IMG/VR virus record: IMGVR_UViG_3300046463_000610
Location: 1-25,044 of that record
DNA: 25,044 nucleotides
Strand: one strand, 5' to 3'
Source: a virus
Positions 6,185 to 24,765 of the stretch are shown in pieces. Position 1 is the stretch's first letter; every line of letters starts with the position of its first letter. The notes beneath the pieces were generated by a model, which searched no databases, was not told the DNA's origin, and saw nothing but the letters and a program-made list of their open reading frames with translations. The position numbers were made by a program, and so were the translations under genes.

Positions 6185-7471
6185 TTAAACCTCGCCTATG
6201 GTTGATTCTTGAATGGCCTCGCAGGCCTTTTGTTCTGTGACTTCCAGCGGTTTTCCCGAATTTTCGTTTCTACCGCCCTTCAACCCGTGAATCAGGGAAA
6301 AACCCTTCTGGTCTAGATGGGCGTGCCACAGTTCAAGGGCGGCGCGCTTGCGCTCTTCGACGGTGGTGTGGATGTAGGCCTGCACGTTGTGGCCCATCGC
6401 GTGGTTGATCAGCATCTCGCCAATCAGGAAGTCGATCCCAAGGTCTGCCCAGCCGGTCCTGGCCAATTTGCGAAGGTCGTGGCTGCTCCACTCGCCCTTC
6501 CCAAGCCCGGTAAACACGGCGCTGGCTTGGCCTTCGCTCATGCCCTTTCCGCCGAGGGAGCGAAACAGGCAATCGCCGTCGTAATGGCTCGCCTTTTGCG
6601 CCGCGCGGTACTGGATTAGCAGGTTGCAGACTTGGTCGGTCAGTGGGAGCGAGTGCTCGACACGGGTCTTGGTGTTGCCCACAGGCAGATACCAGGTGCG
6701 CTCGGCCAAGCTGATATGTGACCACTGGGCTTTGCGCGTCTCACCGATGCGGGTGCCGTGGCAGAGCATCATCAGCGCGAGCATGGCCGGTTGAGGGTCA
6801 ACCTCGAACAACGAATGCAGCTGGCTCAATAGCGGCTCGATCTGCACACCACGAAGGCGTGCCGGCTTGGCCTTGATCTTGGTCTTGGAGAAGTCGCTGA
6901 ACTTGATGCCCGCCATCGGGTTGGAGTGGATCAGGCCCAGCGTATGCGCCTGACGGCAGGCGACCACCAGCAGACCGAAGATCAGCCGGACAAACTCCAG
7001 CGACAAGGTCTCCTGCAGGGGCCACATCAGTTGGGTATCGAGGGTGCCGTGACGGACATCGGCCAGCGCCAGCTCACCCACGCGAGGGATCAGGTGGCAG
7101 GCAATTGCTGACTTACCCGTGGCTTTGCGTTTGTCGGAGAGGTTACGGTCGCGGCTCATCCGGTCGGCGTACCAGGTCAGCAGCTCGCCCAGCGTCGCCC
7201 AAGGCGATACGGCAGCGCCCGCTTCAGGGTCGGCGCTCAGACGCATGCGCAGGTCCGGCAGCGCGGCCAGCACTGCCTTCGCCGACAGGTCAGGATAAGC
7301 GCCGATCCGATTCCACTTCTTGCGCACTACCAAGCTCCAGGTCCCGCGCGGGCGAGCCTCAGTGAAGCGGAAGTACAGCCCCGGGTGTCGCGGGTCACGC
7401 ATCAACACGGCAGCCGGGTCTTCAGCACGGCGCCGAAGCTCGGCATCAGAGAAGGCCACAGTCAAAGTCAT
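6185..7471 (-). CDS. Tyrosine recombinase/integrase-like protein in the nin region
   Basis: A 428-residue phage-integrase-fold protein, separate from the integrase at the right end. An N-terminal arm-binding-like domain precedes a SAM-like core-binding region (residues about 90-190), followed by the catalytic domain. All expected residues can be placed: R241 in CHGTRIGETRKAQW, K268 in GNTKTR, H331 and R334 in SSHDLRKLARTGWADLG, H357 in LINHAMGH, and Y366 in VQAYIHTT. It therefore looks catalytically competent. The start is the ATG at 7471, which overlaps the nuclease stop as ATGA; the frame extends further upstream but inside that gene. Its place between a VRR-NUC nuclease and Zn proteins in the replication operon suggests a role in phage DNA processing, such as resolving multimers, rather than integration. 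That role is inference. Confidence 0.9.
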   Translation of the reverse strand: MTLTVAFSDAELRRRAEDPAAVLMRDPRHPGLYFRFTEARPRGTWSLVVRKKWNRIGAYPDLSAKAVLAALPDLRMRLSADPEAGAAVSPWATLGELLTWYADRMSRDRNLSDKRKATGKSAIACHLIPRVGELALADVRHGTLDTQLMWPLQETLSLEFVRLIFGLLVVACRQAHTLGLIHSNPMAGIKFSDFSKTKIKAKPARLRGVQIEPLLSQLHSLFEVDPQPAMLALMMLCHGTRIGETRKAQWSHISLAERTWYLPVGNTKTRVEHSLPLTDQVCNLLIQYRAAQKASHYDGDCLFRSLGGKGMSEGQASAVFTGLGKGEWSSHDLRKLARTGWADLGIDFLIGEMLINHAMGHNVQAYIHTTVEERKRAALELWHAHLDQKGFSLIHGLKGGRNENSGKPLEVTEQKACEAIQESTIGEV

Positions 7472-7899
7472 GCAGCCACCACTGTAGGAGCGAGCCGCAG
7501 GTAGGCGCGGATCTGCTCCATCGTGTCGAAGTGGCCACGGCACACCACCGCGAGATAACCCTGGGCGTTGAGTTTGCGAATGCGTTCGTGCTGGCTCTCA
7601 GAGATTGCGGCATCGTTCGGCGGCGTGGCCTTGAATTCGATGTACAGGCCGAAGAATCCACCACGGGCCATTGGCAGGACCAGATCAGGGATGCCGGCTT
7701 TCACGCCTTGGGCCTTCAACTTCGCCGCGACGGCTTTGACGCGATGCCCGCCGTTCGGAACATGAAAGATCAGGTCAGCGACTTCGGGCATCCGAGCACG
7801 AAGCTCAGCCATCAACGCCGCCTGCTCCAGCCCCTCACGGTCTACTGGTTTGGCGCGGGTGGTCGGGGTCTTGAACAGCTTCATGGCCGCCAGCTTCAT
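7468..7899 (-). CDS. VRR-NUC domain endonuclease
   Basis: A 143-residue PD-(D/E)XK nuclease of the VRR-NUC type. The core motif is seen as GIPDLVLP (D72), then GLYIEFKA (E88-x-K90), and then SESQHERIRKLNAQGYLAVV, with Q103 and the helix typical of this fold. The early E25-Q26 of REGLEQAALM matches the first conserved acidic helix. Stand-alone phage VRR-NUC proteins are thought to cut branched or flap DNA, taking the place of a RusA or NinG-type junction nuclease in the lambda nin region. It is coupled by overlapping start and stop codons to a 37-aa gene upstream and to a recombinase downstream. An alternative start is Met6. Confidence 0.9.
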   Translation of the reverse strand: MKLAAMKLFKTPTTRAKPVDREGLEQAALMAELRARMPEVADLIFHVPNGGHRVKAVAAKLKAQGVKAGIPDLVLPMARGGFFGLYIEFKATPPNDAAISESQHERIRKLNAQGYLAVVCRGHFDTMEQIRAYLRLAPTVVAA

Positions 7900-11379: not shown

Positions 11380-11586
11380 ATGACCGACTCTTCCGAACTG
11401 CAAGGCGAGATAACGGCCCTTTGTTGCTTCGTAGCTGCCTTGGCATCCTCCCTGCCCTTGTCTTCTCAGCACAGGCGTTGGCCTGCGTTTGAATCGAAGG
11501 CCGGTCTGTTGCGTGATCAGTTGAGCCAAGAGGCATTGCGCGGCTTCGAAGAGGCGACGATCCCGCTCAGTTCGAAGCGCGGTTAG
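11380..11586 (+). CDS. Small plus-strand protein in the cro-cII interval (68 aa)
   Basis: An open frame on the opposite strand to cro and the CII-like gene, starting MTDSSELQGEITALCCFVAA with AAGGA 7 bases before the ATG. The sequence (LPLSSQHRRWPAFESKAG then LRDQLSQEALRGFEEA) has the amphipathic helical pattern of a group of roughly 70-aa Pseudomonas phage and chromosomal proteins beginning MTD..EL...I.AL. Function is unknown. It ends four bases inside the cro 3' end, the two genes sharing stop-codon bases on opposite strands. It fills a 286-base stretch with no convincing minus-strand gene. Its transcript would be antisense to the cro-to-cII message. Confidence 0.6.
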   Translation: MTDSSELQGEITALCCFVAALASSLPLSSQHRRWPAFESKAGLLRDQLSQEALRGFEEATIPLSSKRG

Positions 11587-11777
11587 GCGGCAGTCTTTTG
11601 TGAGGGAAAGGGGCGCTGCTCAAGCGCTGATAGCGATCCATCCTCGTTGCACGTCACGATCACATCGCGACCCACGCGGATGGCCTTACTCAAAGCTCCT
11701 TGGGTGCAGCCAAGCATTTGCGCAGCCTTCGTATGGCCATGCTGTTTTGCGAATTCAGAAAGCGGGATACGGCGCAT
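11583..11777 (-). CDS. cro: Cro repressor, lambda Cro family
   Basis: A 64-residue protein, MRRIPLSEFAKQHGHTKAAQ, then LGCTQGALSKAIRVGRDVI and NEDGSLSALEQRPFPSQKTA. It aligns without gaps of note to lambda Cro (66 residues) over its whole length, with the helix-turn-helix TKAAQMLGCTQGALSKAI and the C-terminal beta strand and PFPS tail that form the dimer. It is the first gene of the leftward early transcript, 25 bases after the predicted start. GAGG lies 8 bases before the ATG. It should bind the same operators as CI, favouring lytic growth. Confidence 0.95.
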   Translation of the reverse strand: MRRIPLSEFAKQHGHTKAAQMLGCTQGALSKAIRVGRDVIVTCNEDGSLSALEQRPFPSQKTAA

Positions 11778-11808: not shown

Positions 11809-11838
11809 ATTATGACCGCCGGTATTGTTTATAGTCAA
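11809..11838 (-). promoter_or_regulatory. Early right promoter (PR-like), reading into cro
   Basis: On the minus strand, -35 TTGACT (11833-11838), an 18-base spacer and -10 CATAAT (11809-11814). The -10 and spacer lie under operator 1 and the -35 touches operator 2, so a bound repressor would block it. The predicted start is near 11802, about 25 bases before cro. Confidence 0.85.
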
Positions 11839-11875
11839 TACCGCCGATATTGGTTGCACGAATACCGCAGGTAAT
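11812..11875. promoter_or_regulatory. Three CI/Cro operators (OR-like) between cro and cI
   Basis: Three 15-base sites fit the palindrome AATACCG-N-CGGTATT: 11812-11826 (left half weaker), 11837-11851 (one mismatch) and 11861-11875 (right half weaker). Centres are 11819, 11844 and 11868, spaced 25 and 24 bases, close to the lambda OR spacing. The same motif recurs at 16020-16059. Which site is strongest cannot be judged beyond consensus match: 11837-11851 is the best of the three. Confidence 0.88.
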
Positions 11876-11880: not shown

Positions 11881-11886
11881 TTGTGG

Positions 11887-12696
11887 ATGACTAAAGACTC
11901 GAGACGACTGCCACTTGCCGATTGGCAACTGGAAGATAGCGACCGCCTGAAAGAGATATTTCAGAAAAAGCGTGCTGCCCTGAAATTGACCCAGGAGAAG
12001 CTGGCAGCGGAATTGGGGGATGGCGTGACTCAGGGTGCCGTCAGTCACTTCATGAACCGGAGAACAGCGCTGAGCCTCAAAGCCGCTGCCGTGTTTGCGA
12101 AAATGCTTGAGGTTCCTGTATCGGAATTCAGTCCTCGTCTCGCTGAGCAACTTGGGCAGTTGAGTTCGGCCCTTGCGCCGGCTGATTCAGCAAAGTCGTA
12201 TGCGTCAAGGGATACCCCATCAGCAAACACGCCATTCCCTGAAGGCGCTGACGCTGAAGCAGCCGAAGACAAATACGCACACATCCCTCAGTACACTGCA
12301 AAAGCAGCCGCTGGCTTTGGACATGAGAACCCTCACGTTGAATCACACGCGACCCTCGCCTTCAAGCGCGAGTGGCTGCGTATCAAGGGCGTGAACCCGA
12401 AGAATCTGATGGTCATTTATGCCGATGGCGAAAGCATGTGGCCGACGATAAACGACCATGATGTGCTGCTCGTTGACGCATCTCGGATTGAGCCTGCGAA
12501 TGGCCATGTCTTTGTTTTGGCAAGCGCCGATAAAGGCGCGATCGTGAAGCGCCTGGTTCAGACTGCACTTGGTGGCTGGATCATCCGAAGCGATAACGAA
12601 GACAAGGATGAATACCCTGATCTCATGCTTTCACGAAGCGAGATCAATGAGCACCGAATCATCGGACGGGTGATTTGGCGAGGTGGTGACCTTTGA
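11887..12696 (+). CDS. cI: CI-type repressor with S24 autoprotease domain
   Basis: A 269-residue protein from the ATG at 11887. The N-terminal DNA-binding domain has the helix-turn-helix LTQEKLAAELGDGVTQGAVS (residues 34-53). A linker of about 50 residues leads to a LexA/CI-type protease domain. Its parts are the A142-G143 cleavage pair in TAKAAAGFGHENPH, S183 in GESMWPTINDHDV, and K221 in GAIVKRLV. It should repress the right and left promoters and cleave itself when RecA is activated. No ribosome site precedes the ATG and PRM would start at it, so the message is probably leaderless as in lambda. A TTG at 11881 also opens the frame. The stop overlaps the next gene's TTG start. Confidence 0.95.
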   Translation: MTKDSRRLPLADWQLEDSDRLKEIFQKKRAALKLTQEKLAAELGDGVTQGAVSHFMNRRTALSLKAAAVFAKMLEVPVSEFSPRLAEQLGQLSSALAPADSAKSYASRDTPSANTPFPEGADAEAAEDKYAHIPQYTAKAAAGFGHENPHVESHATLAFKREWLRIKGVNPKNLMVIYADGESMWPTINDHDVLLVDASRIEPANGHVFVLASADKGAIVKRLVQTALGGWIIRSDNEDKDEYPDLMLSRSEINEHRIIGRVIWRGGDL

Positions 12697-12920
12697 GCCT
12701 CACGAAACCAAACCAAGAATTACATCGAACCCTGGAAGCTGCTGCCGATGAGATTGAGGCTGCAGTCCAGGACTTATTTAGAAAAGCCAAGTCTTACGAC
12801 GAGCCTGAGTTTCTGGCGGCTATGGAAAGGATCAGCAGGATTCACGACCATGTGGATGTTCTGCGAGCCTTTGCCAAGCAAGTGATGGATGGCGCGATCA
12901 TCATGGTCAGCCCTGTTTGA
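12693..12920 (+). CDS. Tandem paralogue 1 of 3 (75 aa, unknown function)
   Basis: Starts with TTG overlapping the cI stop (TTGA), with GAGG 8 bases upstream, so it is co-expressed with cI. The protein reads MSLTKPNQELHRTLEAAADE then DEPEFLAAMERISRIHDHVD and is predicted to be two or three amphipathic helices. By ungapped hand alignment it shares 41 of 75 residues with copy 2. It differs from copies 2 and 3 in its C-terminus, which lacks the GRI.R.K.E ending. It has no signal, membrane segment or cysteine motif. I have seen single members of this type downstream of Pseudomonas prophage repressors, but no function is known to me. Confidence 0.85.
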   Translation: MSLTKPNQELHRTLEAAADEIEAAVQDLFRKAKSYDEPEFLAAMERISRIHDHVDVLRAFAKQVMDGAIIMVSPV

Positions 12921-12935
12921 TATCACGGAATACGG

Positions 12936-13163
12936 ATGCCTCTCACCAAACCCAACCAAGAGCTGCGCCGCGACCTGAAAGCCGCCGCCTCCGCTCTCGA
13001 AGACGCAGCGCACGACCTCTTTCGTGAATCGAAAAACTATGCCGAGCCAGAGTTTCTGGCGGCCATGGAGAAGATCGGGAAGCTGCATGTGCATGTGGAT
13101 CGTCTGATGGAGTATGCGGAAGAGGTGAGAGTAGGAAGGATCGTACGTGGGAAGGTTGAGTGA
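12936..13163 (+). CDS. Tandem paralogue 2 of 3 (75 aa, unknown function)
   Basis: Exactly the same length as its neighbours: MPLTKPNQELRRDLKAAASA then EPEFLAAMEKIGKLHVHVDR, ending GRIVRGKVE. The conserved frame LxKPxQ.LRR.LK, the KLH.HVDRL segment and the V..GRI.R.K.E ending define the family in this window. The ribosome site is weak (GGA in CACGGAATACGG), and the gene begins only 15 bases after copy 1 ends, which suggests one message for all. It shares 33 of 75 residues with copy 3 without gaps. A small helical, probably self-associating protein is a fair guess; the partner is unknown. Confidence 0.85.
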   Translation: MPLTKPNQELRRDLKAAASALEDAAHDLFRESKNYAEPEFLAAMEKIGKLHVHVDRLMEYAEEVRVGRIVRGKVE

Positions 13164-13195
13164 TCTGACGCGGCGCACATGTGCGGGAGGTTTAC

Positions 13196-13423
13196 ATGGG
13201 GCTCAACAAGCCAACCCAAGACCTGAGGCGCGAACTCAAAGAGCTGGCACGTAGTCTGGAACAGGCGGCGACCGAGGTGCTCGATATCACCAAGGGCTGC
13301 ACGGACACCGAGATTGTTCCCGCGCTGAAGCTGATGGCGAAGCTGTACGAGGATGCGGATCGACTGGCGGCTCTGGCGGATGAAGTCAGGGATGGGCGAA
13401 TAACTCGAGCCAAGCCTGAGTAG
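13196..13423 (+). CDS. Tandem paralogue 3 of 3 (75 aa, unknown function)
   Basis: Starts at the ATG at 13196 (MGLNKPTQDLRRELKELARS), set by GGGAGG 5 bases upstream, which also makes it exactly 75 residues like the other two. The open frame back to 13181 has no site. It is the most diverged copy: the central EPEFLAAME is replaced by DTEIVPALKLMAK, while the start, the DRL segment and the GRITRAKPE ending are kept. Its better ribosome site may give it a different level. The gene lies 32 bases after copy 2. Confidence 0.85.
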   Translation: MGLNKPTQDLRRELKELARSLEQAATEVLDITKGCTDTEIVPALKLMAKLYEDADRLAALADEVRDGRITRAKPE

Positions 13424-13778: not shown

Positions 13779-14717
13779 ATGGACGACATGAGCAAAGCAT
13801 CCTTCAACGTACTTTATGATGGCCCGGCCCTCGCGAACAGCGAGATGGACGTGAGAGAGCTTGCACCCGCTCTTTTATCGTTGGGCACCCTTCTGGAGGA
13901 GGCAAACTCCGTTATCAATGATGGTCGGGCTCAAGTATCGGTTCAGGTCAAGGCTACCTTTAAAACTGGCTGCTTTGGCATAGAGCTTGAGGTCGTGCAG
14001 TCCTTTCTTCAGCAGGCTCACAGCCTGTTCTCTAGTGACTCGGTGTCCAGTGCAAAAGAGCTTCTAGAGTGGCTTGGGCTCATTCAGGACAACGTAGGGA
14101 ACCTTGCTGCTGGCGTCGGCGGCCTGCTTCTGCTGATCAAGAAAATTCGTGGCCGACGAATCAACCAAGTAGTGCTCCTTGATAACGGCAAGGTGCGTAT
14201 TGTTATGGATGACGGCGCCATTGAGACAGAAGAGAAGATCCTCAAGCTCTACCGTCAGTTTCGAGTTCGCCAGGCGCTTGAGGGTGTACTTAAGCCCCTT
14301 GAAAGTGAGGGTATCGACACGTTTGCCGTGACAAATTTGAAGCAGACCGAGCGGTTTATTGAGATAACACGTGTTGAGCGCCCCTACTTTAAAACCCCAG
14401 AACCAGAGTCAGAACTATTGGCTGACAATGAGTTCGAGGTGAACCTCCAGATCGTCAGTATCTCCTTCCAGGACGGCAATAAATGGCGGTTCAATGACGG
14501 GGCAAGCGTTTTTTATGCAGACATGCTAGACGAGACGTTCTCCGCCCAGGTGGCCGCAAGCGCAGCAAGCTTCACCAAGGGTGACATCTTGAAAGCTCGA
14601 GTGCGAAGAGTTCAGTCAGTATCTGGCGAGGCATTCAAAACCGAGTACACGGTTCTAAAGGTTTTGGAGCACCGCAAGGCAGCAGCTCAACTGAAAATGA
14701 ACTTCCAGAGAGAGTAG
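13779..14717 (+). CDS. Conserved protein of unknown function (312 aa) in the immunity region
   Basis: The protein starts MDDMSKASFNVLYDGPALAN, then MDVRELAPALLSLGTLLEEA, a beta-rich VSVQVKATFKTGCFGIELEV, and a hydrophobic stretch NVGNLAAGVGGLLLLIKKI near residues 105-124 that could be one membrane segment. Later come LYRQFRVRQALEGVLKPLES, LQIVSISFQDGNKWRFNDG and KGDILKARVRRVQS. I recognise this pattern from uncharacterised proteins scattered across Proteobacteria, often in mobile elements, but know no function and see no catalytic motif. GGGA lies about 7 bases before the ATG. A strong terminator follows and an 88-base gap precedes it, so it may form its own unit. A phage-exclusion role is a position-based guess. 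Confidence 0.88.
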   Translation: MDDMSKASFNVLYDGPALANSEMDVRELAPALLSLGTLLEEANSVINDGRAQVSVQVKATFKTGCFGIELEVVQSFLQQAHSLFSSDSVSSAKELLEWLGLIQDNVGNLAAGVGGLLLLIKKIRGRRINQVVLLDNGKVRIVMDDGAIETEEKILKLYRQFRVRQALEGVLKPLESEGIDTFAVTNLKQTERFIEITRVERPYFKTPEPESELLADNEFEVNLQIVSISFQDGNKWRFNDGASVFYADMLDETFSAQVAASAASFTKGDILKARVRRVQSVSGEAFKTEYTVLKVLEHRKAAAQLKMNFQRE

Positions 14718-15668: not shown

Positions 15669-15691
15669 TAAAATACTGTACATACATACAG
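15669..15691 (+). promoter_or_regulatory. LexA-type SOS box overlapping the DUF1654 promoter
   Basis: CTGTACATACATACAG at 15676-15691 fits CTG-N10-CAG with the alternating TA core of LexA sites. A -10-like TAAAAT (15669-15674) lies directly before it, so LexA would cover the start point. No good -35 is seen at the ideal distance (TTGCCA at 15643 is 20 bases away). AAGGAGG and the ATG follow within 20 bases. Confidence 0.8.
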
Positions 15692-15710: not shown

Positions 15711-15962
15711 ATGGCAAAGCAGAACCCCCAGGCGCCCAAAGTACCGACTTCCTACGAGCTTCTTGGTATGCGCGTGCAGCGCGCAGTCAATACGCCCAAG
15801 GCACAGACATCAAAATCCGTACTGCTGGAACGATCAGCGAATGAAGACCCTGCTGACTGGGACCGCATCCTTGATGAGATTTCGGAGAACGACAACGTCA
15901 CCATCGCGCATAGAGACGACGGACTGATCCAGCTCTTCTGGACAATTCCAAAAGAAGACTGA
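15711..15962 (+). CDS. DUF1654 protein (83 aa), predicted SOS-induced
   Basis: The protein reads MAKQNPQAPKVPTSYELLGM then RVQRAVNTPKAQ, NEDPADWDRILDEISENDNV and DDGLIQLFWTIPKED. This is the pattern of DUF1654, a family found mainly in Pseudomonas and its phages, with no known function. It is a small soluble, acidic protein with no catalytic motif. A near-perfect ribosome site (AAGGAGG, 5-6 bases from the ATG) indicates strong translation. The LexA box in front predicts induction by DNA damage independently of CI. A terminator follows, and the left operators lie only 57 bases downstream, so it is a self-contained unit inside the immunity region. Confidence 0.9.
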   Translation: MAKQNPQAPKVPTSYELLGMRVQRAVNTPKAQTSKSVLLERSANEDPADWDRILDEISENDNVTIAHRDDGLIQLFWTIPKED

Positions 15963-15979: not shown

Positions 15980-16002
15980 GCCCGCCTTGTGCGGGCTTTT
16001 TT
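15980..16002 (+). terminator. Terminator after DUF1654 (fourth of the GCCCGC series)
   Basis: GCCCGC and GCGGGC flank CTTGT, then six T. It stops DUF1654 transcription just before the left operators and promoter. Confidence 0.88.
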
Positions 16003-16019: not shown

Positions 16020-16061
16020 ATGACCGGAGGTATTGACCACAAACAATACCGGCGGTATTGT
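16020..16061 (+). promoter_or_regulatory. Left operators (OL-like) and rightward early promoter (PL-like)
   Basis: Two sites match the operator motif between cro and cI: 16020-16034 (left half weaker) and 16045-16059, a perfect AATACCG-G-CGGTATT palindrome. Centres are 25 bases apart, as at the right operators. Interlaced with them is a plus-strand promoter, -35 TTGACC (16033-16038), 17 bases, -10 TATTGT (16056-16061). CI or Cro bound here would block it. It should drive the early-left arm, starting at about 16068. The pairing of right and left operators about 4.2 kb apart could allow repressor looping. Confidence 0.87.
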
Positions 16062-16108
16062 TTGTTCATCGCAGCGACAAACGCTGCGAAGGGCCTCAAC
16101 AGACCCGC

Positions 16109-16120
16109 CGCTCTTTAACA
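16109..16120 (+). promoter_or_regulatory. boxA antitermination element
   Basis: CGCTCTTTAACA is the rRNA-operon type boxA to which NusB/S10 bind. It lies about 40 bases after the predicted PL start. No such element is seen in the cro leader. Confidence 0.7.
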
Positions 16121-16174
16121 GTCAGCGCAACAAACAACAGACCGCATTGCCTCTACCGGCGACCGGCGAGCAGA

Positions 16175-16190
16175 CAGGCACGAAAGCCTG
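16175..16190 (+). promoter_or_regulatory. boxB-like small hairpin downstream of boxA
   Basis: CAGGC and GCCTG flank ACGAAA. The size and A-rich loop recall nut-site boxB, but it is about 55 bases from boxA, farther than in lambda, and no N-like gene is recognisable in the window. Confidence 0.35.
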
Positions 16191-16403
16191 CCAACGACAG
16201 GAACAACCTGGACGGCTGCTCGATGGTGAAACGCCTTAACCGTGTGAATGACCCGGCAAGCAATGCGCCCCGCCCCTCCGGCGGTAATAGGACGGACAGC
16301 ATCACTTCTGCCCATTCACTGAGTGGGCAGCGGGATGCAGGCCTGCATTAAACGAAAGGCTCAACAGAGCAAGGCGACATCAAATGAATTAGGGAATCGA
16401 CCC

Positions 16404-17078
16404 ATGACTGTAGACATCAGCAACTACACCATCGCCACCCCGCTTCCAATTTCCGAGACCAACCCGATCGCGCTGGAACTGATCGGTTGGCGTGCGCTAC
16501 TCGAGTGTCCGGAAGTTATCTCGATGCTTCCCGATGGCTCCCTGCAGATGACGGCGCCGACACTCGGAGCTTCGAGTAAGAGCACGAAGCGAACTCGTTG
16601 CGAATGGAAGGAGCCAGGTTACTGGTTGTTCTCCAGCGCCGAAGATCACTGGAGCCGACAAGAGATGCGAGTAACGAAGGTCAACTCGCTGCAGAAGGTG
16701 GTGATCGCTCAAATTCATGTGAAGGACTCAGAACGACCGCCTGTGAAGGTGTTCTGGAACAAGGGAAAAATCATCATGGGGTTTCGATCGAGCTACCTGC
16801 AAGACGATCCCGTGAACTCGACGGTGCTCGAAAACGTACCGCTCGGTGCGCTTTTCAAAATCAACATTCACGCCAACTCCAGCGGTGCCATTTCCGTATC
16901 GGCGAGCTGTAACGGCGTCAAATCTACGTCCGAAATCATGCGCCTCGACAACACCTGGGACACGAAGACTCTCGCCTTCCACGGCGGCGTGTACAACCAG
17001 ATCGATTACTCCGACACCACCGATCCTGAGGACGCTTCGATTTGCGTGATCAGTGATCTATCCATCACTCACGGGTAA
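16404..17078 (+). CDS. Polysaccharide lyase family 7 (alginate lyase-like) protein
   Basis: A 224-residue protein starting MTVDISNYTIATPLPISETN. The whole length follows the PL7 jelly-roll pattern. Three signature motifs are present: TRCEWKE (R65, E67) for R.ELRE, QIH at 103-105 exactly, and AFHGGVYNQ at 191-199 for YFKAGVYNQ. The residues taken as catalytic in PL7 (motif-1 Arg, Gln103, His105, Tyr197) are all kept, while the outer motif positions differ. PL7 enzymes cleave alginate by beta-elimination. There is no signal peptide, so export would need lysis or another route. It is the first gene of the early-left transcript and has only a weak AGGGA 8 bases upstream. Loss of the usual motif residues may mean a changed substrate. 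Confidence 0.85.
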   Translation: MTVDISNYTIATPLPISETNPIALELIGWRALLECPEVISMLPDGSLQMTAPTLGASSKSTKRTRCEWKEPGYWLFSSAEDHWSRQEMRVTKVNSLQKVVIAQIHVKDSERPPVKVFWNKGKIIMGFRSSYLQDDPVNSTVLENVPLGALFKINIHANSSGAISVSASCNGVKSTSEIMRLDNTWDTKTLAFHGGVYNQIDYSDTTDPEDASICVISDLSITHG

Positions 17079-17681: not shown

Positions 17682-17811
17682 GAAAAGAACCCGGTGTTTT
17701 TATCTGATGGTAGCAGCCGTCTTGCGGCTCGCTGAGATGGCGGACGAAATGGAGACCGAGCTGACAGACGACCTGGCAAACAGGAGCGGGTCACGGGGGA
17801 AAGCATCACTG

Positions 17812-17835
17812 AAGCCCGTTCTTGGAGCGGGCTTT
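17812..17835 (+). terminator. Hairpin, probable weak terminator
   Basis: AAGCCCGTTC and GAGCGGGCTT pair around TTG (one G-T pair). Only a short T run follows on the plus strand, so termination may be partial. Confidence 0.6.
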
Positions 17836-18068
17836 GGGATGCGGACGAAACTGCGGCCTATAACCGCCCACCTGCATCACCGCAGAAGAATCAAGTCGCC
17901 AAACTTGGGCTCTGATCCGTCGCTGGGTTAGATGGAGAACCCCAGCTATGCCGGGATTGGCTCCGGCCTTCTGCATCAACCAACTACCGAGGAATGCTCG
18001 GCAGTTCAGATCAGCAGGGAGGATTGGCAGCCATGTAACCGAACAGCCCAAAAATCACTACATCTGTG

Positions 18069-20184: not shown

Positions 20185-21054
20185 ATGAATCCCTACCTTA
20201 TCACCGGCCCGGCCCAGATCGGCATCAGTGGTGGTCGTACCAGCGGGCACATGGTCTACAAGATCCTTGAAGCCCACGGCGGAGTGCTGCCGCCGGACGT
20301 GCACCTGTTCTTTCAGAACACTGGCAAGGAGCGCGAGGAAACGCTGGTCTTCATCGACCAAATAACCAGGCGCTGGAACGTGAAAATCGTTTGGATGGAA
20401 TGGTGCCGCTTGTACGGCCAGCCAGATGATGCTCCGTGGTACCGGTTAGTGGATTTCGAGACAGCCAGCCGCAACGGCGAGCCTTTCACGATGATGCTCG
20501 AGTATTACGCCGCGTACCGGGAGGCAGAAAAGAATCTGCCACCGGTGTTGCCGAACTTCTCGAACAATATGTGCACCGCGTACTTGAAGGTTAAGATCGG
20601 CGAGAAGCACATGCGCGCCCTGGGCTACGCCGAATGGGATTGCGTCGTCGGTATCCGCTACGACGAGCCGAAGCGCTACCACCGCATGATGGCCGCCAAC
20701 GACCGCGGCGGCACACGCTGGGATAATGTCTGCCCCTCGTACACAGCCAGCATCACCAAGGAGGACGTCAGTGCGTTCTGGGCAGCCCAGCCCTTCGATC
20801 TGGGAATGGATTCCGACTTCGGCAACTGCGATCTGTGCTGGAAAAAGAACGAGGCCAAGCTGATCAGGACCATTTATGAAGACCCGTCCAGGGTGATCTG
20901 GTGGTCCGGAATCGAAGAACGGTTCGGCCAGGTATTCCGCCAGGACCGTCCCAATTACAAGTCGCTGGCCTGGTCAGCAGACCAACGTGCCAGGCAGGCG
21001 GATTTCGATTTCGACTACCTGGCCGAAGACATCGACTGCTTCTGCGGCGATTGA
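20185..21054 (+). CDS. Phage PAPS-reductase-like protein (adenine nucleotide alpha hydrolase fold)
   Basis: A 289-residue protein with the PP-loop SGGRTSG at residues 15-21, then a DVHLFFQNTGKEREETLVFI segment typical of the phosphoadenosine phosphosulfate reductase superfamily. Cysteines C130 (NNMCTAYLKVKIGEKH), C183, C215/C218 (GNCDLCWKKNE) and C285/C287 (DCFCGD) could bind an iron-sulfur cluster or zinc. Relatives are frequent in phages and prophages; whether they reduce sulfate, modify nucleic acid or act in defence is unsettled. TGGAG is 5 bases before the ATG. A DNA methyltransferase follows on the same strand, which makes a nucleic-acid role worth considering. Confidence 0.9.
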   Translation: MNPYLITGPAQIGISGGRTSGHMVYKILEAHGGVLPPDVHLFFQNTGKEREETLVFIDQITRRWNVKIVWMEWCRLYGQPDDAPWYRLVDFETASRNGEPFTMMLEYYAAYREAEKNLPPVLPNFSNNMCTAYLKVKIGEKHMRALGYAEWDCVVGIRYDEPKRYHRMMAANDRGGTRWDNVCPSYTASITKEDVSAFWAAQPFDLGMDSDFGNCDLCWKKNEAKLIRTIYEDPSRVIWWSGIEERFGQVFRQDRPNYKSLAWSADQRARQADFDFDYLAEDIDCFCGD

Positions 21055-21259: not shown

Positions 21260-21357
21260 TGATCCTCCCATTGCCCGCTGGGTTTTATTCGGGCCACTCG
21301 GCAAATTACCCCACATCACCCCATTGCTCCAGCCCAAAGAGGCTGGCGGGACTATCA

Positions 21358-22281
21358 ATGACAACAGCAATTGATTTGTTCGCCGGTCTCGGCGGATGGT
21401 CAACCGGTGCCCGCAATGCCGGCATCGACGTTCTTTGGGCCGCTAATCACTGGCCGGTTGCGGTTGAGTGGCACAGCGCCAACCACCCCCACACACAACA
21501 CGTCTGCCAAGATCTGCACCAGGCGCAATGGGAGAAGGTTCCGGCGCATGACCTGCTGCTGGCCTCGCCATGCTGCCAGGGACATTCGAAAGCCCGCGGA
21601 AAGAAGTCTGGAAACCCACAACACGACTCATCACGCTCGACAGCTTGGGCTGTGGTTTCGGCGCTGGAGTTTCACCGACCTGAAGCTGGGCTGGTAGAGA
21701 ACGTCGAGGAATTCACCGACTGGGCGCTTTACCCGGCCTGGGTCGCAGCAGTGCAAGCGCTAGGCTATCAGGTCGCACCACATGTAGTGGATTGCGCTGA
21801 CTTAGGGGTTCCGCAGCATCGAGTGCGACTGTTCTTAGTCCTGACTCGGAGCAAGGCACCGCTGATGCTAGAGCTGCACCGGCGTCAGCATGTACCGGCC
21901 GCCAGCTTCCTCGACTTCGATGCCGGCCGCTGGTCACCGATCGAAAAGCCGGGGCGAGCCCACGCCACCCTAGAGCGGGTGCGCAATGGCCGCGAACGCT
22001 TCGGCGAGCGATTCATCATGCCCTATTACGGCAAAGGCTCTGGCCTGACCGGGCGCGACATCAAACGGCCAATCGGCACCATTACCACCCTGGATCGCTG
22101 GGCATTGGTCGACGGTGACCGCATACGGATGCTCAGCGCCGGCGAGGCCCTGGCCGCGCAATCCTTCCCGGCGGACACCCTACGCCCGGTCAACCACCGC
22201 CTGACCATGCATATGGCTGGCAATGCGGTACCGCCGCTGGCGGGACAGCGAATCATCGAGGCGCTGGTGGCTGCCGCATAA
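21358..22281 (+). CDS. DNA cytosine-C5 methyltransferase
   Basis: A 307-residue orphan methyltransferase. Motif I is DLFAGLGGWSTGARNAGID (binds S-adenosylmethionine), motif IV is LASPCCQGHS with the catalytic Cys at 73, motif VI is VENVEEF (114-116), motif VIII is QHRVRLF, and motif X is GNAVPP near the end. It transfers a methyl group to C5 of cytosine in a specific site, probably to protect phage DNA from host restriction or to mark it. No restriction enzyme is adjacent. The target-recognition part is short. The ribosome site is weak (GGCGGGA). The ATG at 21358 begins MTTAIDLF; the longer open frame adds unrelated residues. Confidence 0.94.
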   Translation: MTTAIDLFAGLGGWSTGARNAGIDVLWAANHWPVAVEWHSANHPHTQHVCQDLHQAQWEKVPAHDLLLASPCCQGHSKARGKKSGNPQHDSSRSTAWAVVSALEFHRPEAGLVENVEEFTDWALYPAWVAAVQALGYQVAPHVVDCADLGVPQHRVRLFLVLTRSKAPLMLELHRRQHVPAASFLDFDAGRWSPIEKPGRAHATLERVRNGRERFGERFIMPYYGKGSGLTGRDIKRPIGTITTLDRWALVDGDRIRMLSAGEALAAQSFPADTLRPVNHRLTMHMAGNAVPPLAGQRIIEALVAAA

Positions 22282-23302: not shown

Positions 23303-23716
23303 ATGGCAAACGCTACTGCGGCCAAGGCCAGCAGCATCCCTCCGAGGTTCATCCGATTCATGGATGCCCCCGGCTATCTCGGCATGTGCCGCGACGAATT
23401 CAACAAAACGGTCCGGCCCAACGTTCGCGAGTTCCCCATCGGGAAGCAGGGTGTCGCCTTCGATCGTATCGAGCTAGACGAGTGGGCCGACGCCTATATC
23501 GAAAGCAAGTCGATTGAAAAGGCAGCCAAACAGGACAACAATCGCCCTCGCAGCGAGCGCCAGGGTGAAACCAAAGGAGGTAACCCATGGCGAGAAAAGC
23601 GATCTCAGGTCTATATCAGAAAGGTGGAGTCTGGCAAATCGACAAAGTGTTCCGAGGCGAGCGACTTCGAGAAAGCACTGGCACTAGTGACCGGCAAGAA
23701 GCCGAGCAGTACCTGA
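23303..23716 (+). CDS. Excisionase-like / small DNA-binding protein overlapping int
   Basis: A 137-residue protein starting MANATAAKASSIPPRFIRFM. Residues about 13-66 (DAPGYLGMCRDEFNKTVRPN, then GVAFDRIELDEWADAYIES) have the layout of winged-helix excisionase/AlpA-like DNA-binding proteins. GGAG is 8 bases before the ATG. The position directly before int supports a role in excision or in int control. Unusually, its last 130 bases overlap the integrase in another frame, and that part (SQVYIRKVESGKSTKC then SDFEKALALVTGKKPS) still looks like sensible protein. The int ribosome site lies inside it. Confidence 0.78.
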   Translation: MANATAAKASSIPPRFIRFMDAPGYLGMCRDEFNKTVRPNVREFPIGKQGVAFDRIELDEWADAYIESKSIEKAAKQDNNRPRSERQGETKGGNPWREKRSQVYIRKVESGKSTKCSEASDFEKALALVTGKKPSST

Positions 23717-24765
23717 TTCACCGGCTGGAGCAGCTTCGACAGCAGAAGGTATACGGCGTACGCCGCACCAGAACCTGGGAGGAAGCGGCGACACGGTTTC
23801 TGATCGAGAGCAAGGACCAACCCTCGATCAAGTTGACGGCGCATCACCTGAAGCAGCTTCACCCATACCTCAAGGACCTGCCATTGACTCACATCGATGA
23901 CCAGGCGCTTGAGCCTTTCGTGAAGGATCGCTTGAAGGGAATGGTGTTGCCATGCGGGAAGCAGTTGAAGCCGGTGGCACCCCGCACAATCAACATCTCA
24001 ATTGAGCGGGTGATACGGGTTCTATCGCTTTGCGCAAGGAAGTGGCGGGATGAAGAGCGCAGACCCTGGCTTGATTCTGTGCCAATGCTGGCCAAGCTGG
24101 ACTTGAAGAAAAAGGTACGCGAGCCTTACCCCATGACATGGGAAGAGCAATCGATCCTTTTCGGTGAGTTGCCGGCCCACCTGCAAACAATGGCGCTGTT
24201 CAAGGTGAACACCGGCACACGGGAGCAGGAAGTCTGCAAGTTGAGATGGGATTGGGAGATCTCGGTGCCCGAACTGGGCACCAGTGTATTCCTGATACCG
24301 TCCGACTTTGGGGGCCGGAACGAGCGGTCAGGTGTGAAGAACGGTGATGAGCGGCTTGTCGTGCTCAACAACGTGGCCAAGTCGATCATCGACAAGCAGC
24401 GCGGGCTGAGCAAGGACTGGGTTTTTCCGTACAACGGCAACGCGATGCACCGTATGAACGACTCGGCATGGAAGAAAGCGCGGGTGAGAGCGGCGAAACT
24501 CTGGCAGGAGGAAAACCTTCGCCCCGCTCACCCTGGGTATGCATCTATCAGGGTGCACGACTTGAAACACACGTTTGGCCGTCGCCTTCGGGCGGCAGGT
24601 GTCACGCAGGAGGACCGCAAGGCACTTCTGGGGCACAAGAACGGCAGCATCACCAGTCATTACTCGGGCGCCGAGCTCGGGCATCTGATTGAAGCTGCGA
24701 ACATGGTATCAGCAACCGACTCGCGGGGACCGGTGCTGACGATCTTGAAGAGGAAAACGGGATAA
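23587..24765 (+). CDS. int: Phage integrase, tyrosine recombinase
   Basis: A 392-residue enzyme that should recombine attP with the tRNA-Pro gene. An N-terminal arm-binding region (ISGLYQKGGVWQIDKVFRGE) and a SAM-like core-binding region (about 63-160) precede the catalytic domain. R212 lies in NTGTREQEVCKLRW, K251 in the beta hairpin region, H324 in VHDLKHTFGRRL, H350 in LLGHKNGS, and the nucleophile Y359 in ITSHYSGAEL. The second Arg of HxxR is Lys327, a substitution found in some integrases. GGAGG is 6 bases before the ATG. It ends 70 bases from the 3' end of the tRNA, the usual place for a tRNA-targeting prophage. Confidence 0.96.
   Translation: MARKAISGLYQKGGVWQIDKVFRGERLRESTGTSDRQEAEQYLIHRLEQLRQQKVYGVRRTRTWEEAATRFLIESKDQPSIKLTAHHLKQLHPYLKDLPLTHIDDQALEPFVKDRLKGMVLPCGKQLKPVAPRTINISIERVIRVLSLCARKWRDEERRPWLDSVPMLAKLDLKKKVREPYPMTWEEQSILFGELPAHLQTMALFKVNTGTREQEVCKLRWDWEISVPELGTSVFLIPSDFGGRNERSGVKNGDERLVVLNNVAKSIIDKQRGLSKDWVFPYNGNAMHRMNDSAWKKARVRAAKLWQEENLRPAHPGYASIRVHDLKHTFGRRLRAAGVTQEDRKALLGHKNGSITSHYSGAELGHLIEAANMVSATDSRGPVLTILKRKTG

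Follow-up and report, generated by a model that had tools for sequence, protein, structure and literature searches.

A phage depolymerase is commonly pictured as a late-made part of the virion. Tailspikes and other virion-bound depolymerases are late virion proteins whose presumed target is the host exopolysaccharide. In Pseudomonas, SOS switches of the AlpR/PrtR type consist of a chromosomal CI-like repressor that is relieved by DNA damage and lies beside its target, and they control lysis or pyocin genes. The P. aeruginosa protein PA1167 (PDB 1vav), a PL7-fold protein of about 223 residues without a signal peptide, cleaves alginate in vitro (PMC8829089). A PL7 glucuronan lyase is known from the fungus Trichoderma parareesei (PDB 7nde). 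Additionally, P. aeruginosa infected with phage GH4 displays alginase activity although the phage has no such gene; the host cell is the presumed source, and the activity was left unexplained (PMC4790368). Its authors discuss two purposes, opening of the matrix to let progeny phages through and a flight response by the host (PMC4790368).

The PL7 gene described here lies in a 25-kb IMG/VR fragment (25,044 nucleotides, not a whole prophage), referred to below as the window. Like the tailspike enzymes, its product presumably targets host exopolysaccharide; unlike them, it is a single-domain, cytosolic protein encoded in an early operon. Its chromosomal relatives include units that resemble AlpR/PrtR switches, with a polysaccharide lyase in the place of lysis or pyocin genes. 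The putative regulation of PL7 genes by such CI-type units or by LexA is the new point.

Protein Family, Fold, and Catalytic Residues

The gene occupies 16404..17078 on the plus strand, from an ATG at 16404 to a stop at 17078, and encodes 224 amino acids. The protein matches Pfam family PF08787 (Alginate_lyase2) with 145.6 bits (cut-off 29.7), residues 3-223 aligning to positions 1-225 of the 225-position profile, and Pfam finds no other domain in it. It also matches PHROG 31475 (450 bits), a phage family without assigned function, and no NCBIfam model. By sequence, the nearest solved structure is PA1167 (E 1e-7). An AlphaFold2 model based on 59 sequences from the window and the related loci has a mean pLDDT of 96.3, and its best structural match (Foldseek, VIA-align) is again PA1167 (Z 29.7, rmsd 1.6 Å, 207 residues). 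Below PA1167, the PDB ranking contains almost entirely alginate and glucuronan lyases of the same fold, nearly all PL7. The structure prediction that had been suggested as a check on the assignment thus returns the PL7 fold. Together, profile match and model leave very little doubt that the window ORF belongs to the PL7 family and fold.

A profile alignment with PA1167 and A1-II' places Arg65, Gln103, His105, and Tyr197 at the PL7 catalytic residues; we take the catalytic roles of Arg, Gln, His, and Tyr at these positions to be those established for PL7. None of the four varies in the 59-sequence alignment, where identity to the window protein goes down to 52%, or in more distant phage proteins. 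The QIH, GVYNQ, and R-x-E motifs of the original prediction are present as Q103-H105, residues 195-199, and R65-C-E67, and its presumption that the catalytic residues are kept agrees with their invariance in the group. PA1167 shares these residues, yet it has 23% identity to the window protein and belongs to a separate lineage with RxELR and YFKAG motifs. The T. parareesei enzyme has the PL7 fold (Z 25.0) and YNQ at the catalytic Tyr, but it keeps an FK-type motif and has 19% identity over the structural alignment.

The whole Pseudomonas lineage to which the window protein belongs has RTRCEWK and FHGGVYNQ in place of RxELR and YFKAGxYxQ. In the window protein, His193 stands at the Lys of YFKAG and Lys69 at the second Arg of RxELR. 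These letters around the catalytic residues have no bearing on PL7 family membership, and the His193 and Lys69 changes may result in a specificity that differs from alginate. The original prediction had taken YFKAG to AFHGG and RTELR to RCEWK as possible signs of an altered protein. Both changes are real, but they are lineage-wide and conserved, that is, a lineage trait and not decay.

The protein lacks a signal peptide, as had been proposed; the highest 15-residue hydropathy near its N-terminus is 1.06. An in-frame GTG at 16323 could open a longer ORF, and the ATG matching 16404 is the start in nearly all relatives. A signal peptide encoded from this GTG was considered and rejected because the added region has no hydrophobic stretch and is a structured, conserved leader with indels among relatives. 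Charge is uninformative, with a pI of 5.5 for the window protein and of 9.8 and 4.7 in two other Pseudomonas lineages. A role in defense was rejected as well, since PADLOC gives no match. So was a tailspike or other virion part; the protein has one domain and 224 residues, is encoded in an early operon without late context, and does not form part of a tail protein among late genes.

Immunity Region and PL Promoter

The window has an immunity region of the lambda type. A CI-type repressor (11881..12696, plus strand) with HTH and S24 peptidase domains carries the Ala-Gly, GESM, and Lys features of self-cleaving repressors, and Cro (11583..11777, minus strand; Pfam Cro, 75.8 bits) is encoded divergently. 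Both were assigned by Pfam and PHROGs. The operator-like sequence AATACCGNCGGTATT and its near matches occur three times in the cI-cro gap (11812..11826, 11837..11851, and 11861..11875) and twice before PL7, on the plus strand, as ATGACCGGAGGTATT (16020..16034) and AATACCGGCGGTATT (16045..16059). The second of these lies within a perfect 13-bp inverted repeat (16039-16065). Over both strands, 10 matches are observed vs. 0.78 expected from shuffles, and the spacing of 24-25 bp is like that of lambda.

A promoter-like PL site, TTGACC-17-TATTGT (16033..16061, plus strand), overlaps the second PL7-side operator. With 9 of 12 consensus positions, the match is weak alone, and the overlapping operators support the site as promoter-like. 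An intrinsic-terminator-like hairpin (15980..15996, plus strand) closes the transcript of the DUF1654 gene and separates that gene from PL, and the interval from PL to PL7 contains no credible gene. PL7 is thus the first gene behind PL, in line with the original prediction. The operators of a self-cleaving CI in its promoter are, at the level of sequence, the mark of an SOS-regulated gene. Control of the window PL7 gene by CI is therefore highly probable on this promoter anatomy.

The DUF1654 gene (15711..15962, plus strand) often adjoins PL7 in prophages and at one chromosomal location. It is preceded by CTGTACATACATACAG (15676..15691, plus strand), the only LexA-like box in the window; none lies upstream of PL7. 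The pairing of such a box with DUF1654 is seen again at the P. putida chromosomal location described below.

A leader of about 340 bp separates the PL promoter from PL7. Its conserved untranslated part (16085..16290, plus strand) contains the boxA-like CGCTCTTTAACA at 16109-16120 and is a candidate antitermination RNA of the nut or put type. Phage UFJF_PfDIW6 shares the stretch 16090-16273 (184 bp) at 92% identity, and phage VW-6S shares 101 bp at 94%. Both are lambda-like Pseudomonas phages that otherwise differ from the window. Farther down, the 5' untranslated region has a hairpin element, GCATCACT...GGGATGC (16299..16338, plus strand), with a second copy at 17803..17842 (plus strand) in the PL operon; two occurrences compare with 0.02 expected. 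Three of its pairs show compensatory changes. The element is the conserved PL7 5' leader in prophages and in two groups of chromosomal units, and in four chromosomal loci (L069, L072, L073, L074) it recurs directly 3' of PL7. Neither leader nor hairpin matches a known RNA family in Rfam.

Relatives in Phages and Chromosomes

Relatives were found in 48 IMG/VR loci. Most are about 90% identical and of prophage type, and a few, at 61-65%, are in contigs of 109-317 kb. Among isolated phages, the jumbo phage Psa21 has a relative with 59% identity, nine 200-kb P. putida phages have relatives with about 40%, and AH02 has one with 31%. In AH02 (L052, 8001-8855), this distant PL7 gene lies between an aminohydrolase and an esterase gene, close to a holin gene, which is a different, lysis-side placement. 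The lineage with RTRCEWK and FHGGVYNQ, here called lineage C, is represented in jumbo phages and in about 50 loci of prophage type, and a genus-wide sample of 299 Pseudomonas genomes has it in 53. Plasmids gave only one distant PL7 hit (25% identity).

PL7 genes are common in Pseudomonas. Each of the four genomes searched first has two or three, and at least one is present in 23 of 25 genomes of a wider set. They form three lineages, PA1784-like, PA1167-like, and lineage C, all without a signal-peptide-like start. An early, cytosolic PL7 enzyme had been described in advance as out of place, which does not hold on either count. The PA1167-like and PA1784-like chromosomal lineages are likewise free of signal peptides, and the early position recurs in dozens of prophages with varied repressors. 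In most prophage loci, PL7 is downstream of cI or DUF1654, often directly after the leader and sometimes a few genes later.

A tree was made by a quick method with SH-aLRT support and midpoint rooting; its root is not fixed, so it does not tell which way transfer between phages and chromosomes went. In it, the prophage-type proteins fall into a single clade (55 rows, support 99) together with the chromosomal copies from locations 1 and 2 (see below). The jumbo-phage proteins form a separate clade (99), and the remaining chromosomal lineage-C proteins group apart (57 rows, 86). Median pairwise dN/dS (Nei-Gojobori) is 0.048 in the prophage clade; the chromosomal members of the clade give 0.056, and the copies at the P. 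putida location 0.18. By this measure, PL7 of the prophage clade is under strong purifying selection. Nearly all relatives have a full-length open frame. One chromosomal copy without cI nearby (L076, 8001-8633) has lost 14 residues behind the catalytic Tyr and is apparently decaying.

CI-Type Units and LexA Boxes

In 22 chromosomes, a CI-type repressor gene lies a short distance upstream of PL7, the pair is flanked by host genes, and no further phage gene was recognized in the loci that were read closely. P. frederiksbergensis AS1 is among the strains with a stand-alone cI-PL7 unit. Location 1 adjoins folE (L068, L069, L071-L074). The flanks of a second group (L058, L059, L063, L064, L066, L067) suggest more than one site. 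A P. putida-group location is near aroE, often with DUF1654 (L083, L092, L093, L097, L098, L100-L102, L105, L107). The repressors differ, and all CI types keep the self-cleavage residues. The palindromes of the units differ as well: ATATGGGA..CCCATAT, ATAGCAGC..GCTGCTAT, and ATTTAGC..GCTAAAT. Across 21 chromosomal cI-PL7 loci, the location-specific motif is in the PL7 promoter of 19 and the cI promoter of 16, counts that describe location and are not an independent test of discovery because part of these loci had served to derive the motifs. Elsewhere in these loci, the motif occurs once in about 340 kb, and this near absence is the informative part of the count. As in the window, the units thus have sequence matches to the operator of a self-cleaving CI in front of PL7, the layout of an SOS-regulated gene.

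Prophage loci allow a less tailored comparison in which the palindromes are taken from the cI promoter only, with at most 2 mismatches. The palindrome recurs upstream of PL7 in 24 of 39 loci vs. 1 of 39 in a control region downstream, some loci being near copies of each other. Several different operator sequences are represented among the matches.

LexA-like boxes were scanned with at most 3 mismatches within 350 bp. They lie upstream of 17 of 80 lineage-C genes vs. 0.2 expected from the remaining sequence of those loci, and of none of the 30 PL7 genes of the PA1167-like and PA1784-like lineages. Seven chromosomal copies without a neighboring cI (L077-L082, L087), all at one location near PAS-kinase and KaiC-like genes, have a box 136-163 bp before the start. 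Nine of the 17 boxes belong to the P. putida location and stand at the DUF1654 promoter rather than PL7's own, so they point to an SOS neighborhood rather than to PL7 itself. About half of the chromosomal lineage-C genes, including that of P. aeruginosa PA7, have neither a CI operator nor a LexA box. Some chromosomal copies have a further SOS-type neighbor, a YedK-like (SRAP) gene recognized by eye just downstream of PL7 (L058, 8831-9550; also L063). Searches of open-access papers gave nothing relevant on a link between such lyases and SOS or mitomycin C.

Proposed Function and Alternatives

The proposed product is a PL7 lyase of the cytosol whose substrate is most likely alginate or a related uronan. 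In a lysogen, CI would keep PL closed. DNA damage or a fresh infection would relieve CI and give rise to a PL transcript that starts with PL7. The enzyme would then accumulate throughout the lytic cycle and exit the cell only at lysis, where it could cut the alginate matrix of the host colony and allow progeny phages to move and reach their receptors. Where a chromosomal relative is preceded by a LexA box or by a CI-type repressor of its own, the same logic would apply to the bacterium, with PL7 produced under DNA damage and freed when cells lyse. Sequence and prediction show the fold and family, the catalytic residues, the operators and promoter, the purifying selection, and the operator pattern of the stand-alone units, whereas we infer that the repressor binds, that the enzyme is catalytic and on which substrate, and that there is SOS induction, release, and a benefit. 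We assign a probability of roughly 0.5 to this reading, in which prophage induction or SOS leads to synthesis of a cytosolic alginate lyase and lysis sets it free to loosen the matrix. Release on lysis to help spread, one of the options in the original prediction, is thus still the reading we favor. Regarding its parts, an active uronan lyase is likely, alginate is somewhat more likely than not to be the main substrate, and the odds that release by lysis is the function are about even.

We know of no uronate polymer in the cytosol of these bacteria, which makes use after lysis, on the surrounding alginate, the simplest option. An alginate export protein is encoded in all 24 host genomes tested. 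To our knowledge, alginate genes are near universal in Pseudomonas, so this finding does not discriminate. Release by lysis does not explain the early position because release from a late operon would work equally.

That early promoter, the missing export signal, and the place of PL7 near the front of PL in many prophages would also suit an enzyme that acts within the cell during infection or SOS stress, for instance on alginate trapped in the periplasm, another uronate polymer, or the envelope, and remodels the host early. Retention of PL7 in chromosomes without phage lysis genes nearby agrees with such a role. The lack of a known cytosolic uronate polymer in the hosts, which is established knowledge, speaks against it, and the usual routes do not carry a signal-less protein into the periplasm of an intact cell. 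Alginate in the periplasm does harm, and a fail-safe function against it has been proposed for other PL7 proteins (PMC8829089), which adds to the appeal of an intracellular role that we nevertheless consider unlikely. A PL7-fold protein without lyase activity, binding a sugar or another partner as, for example, an exclusion or regulatory factor, would account for the lineage-wide replacement of RxELR and YFKAGxYxQ by RCEWK and FHGGVYNQ. Such a protein is distinctly improbable given that the four catalytic-aligned residues are invariant down to 52% identity and that the best structural matches are active lyases.

The gene could instead be lysogeny cargo (a moron) that serves the living host by breaking down alginate in the environment, as food or for dispersal, after export by some route. 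Its separate conserved 5' leader travels with it into chromosomes, where the stand-alone copies are under purifying selection. With CI operators on its promoter in prophages and units, however, the gene should be silent in the lysogen, and the signal peptide is absent, so this explanation is very unlikely. An inert hitchhiker or false gene call is contradicted by the median dN/dS of 0.048 and the full-length frame in nearly all relatives and deserves practically no credence.

If SOS control and release by lysis both hold, DNA damage and phage induction would directly trigger matrix breakdown. This would be relevant to how biofilms disperse and how phages spread through mucoid colonies, and also to old reports of alginase from Pseudomonas infected by phages, for which the gene was never found. 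One enzyme lineage heads the early operon across many immunity types, and chromosomes have kept it with a CI-type repressor and operators. A broader and more tentative idea, possible but short of probable, is that Pseudomonas and their phages share a dedicated cytosolic PL7 lineage. It would be wired to DNA damage through prophage CI, stand-alone chromosomal cI-PL7 units with operators of their own, or LexA, and would dissolve the alginate matrix once part of a population lyses under SOS or phage induction. If true, this lineage could supply the gene behind the unexplained host alginases that phages induce. The GH4-induced activity fits the proposed function, in that alginate degradation appears with phage infection (PMC4790368); its link to lineage C is only a hypothesis.

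Other Genes in the Window

At the rex position downstream of cI, 13779-14717 encodes a protein that matches the candidate defense family PDC-S42 (340 bits) and NCBIfam LAPAL_fam. The RexAB-type system of a P. putida prophage provides a comparison (PMC12894663). After cI, three similar small genes (12693, 12936, and 13181; together 12693-13423) encode about 75-80 amino acids each, with starts like MPLTKPNQELRR, and form a tandem family with no function assigned. The early-left region also encodes a PAPS-reductase-like protein with weak SspD similarity (20185-21054) and an orphan C5 cytosine methyltransferase (21343-22281). Two proteins have a Pfam Phage_integrase domain (6185-7543 and 23587-24765). 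One of them belongs to the rightward operon and is thus distant from the side with the attachment site, where the end is a tRNA-Pro.
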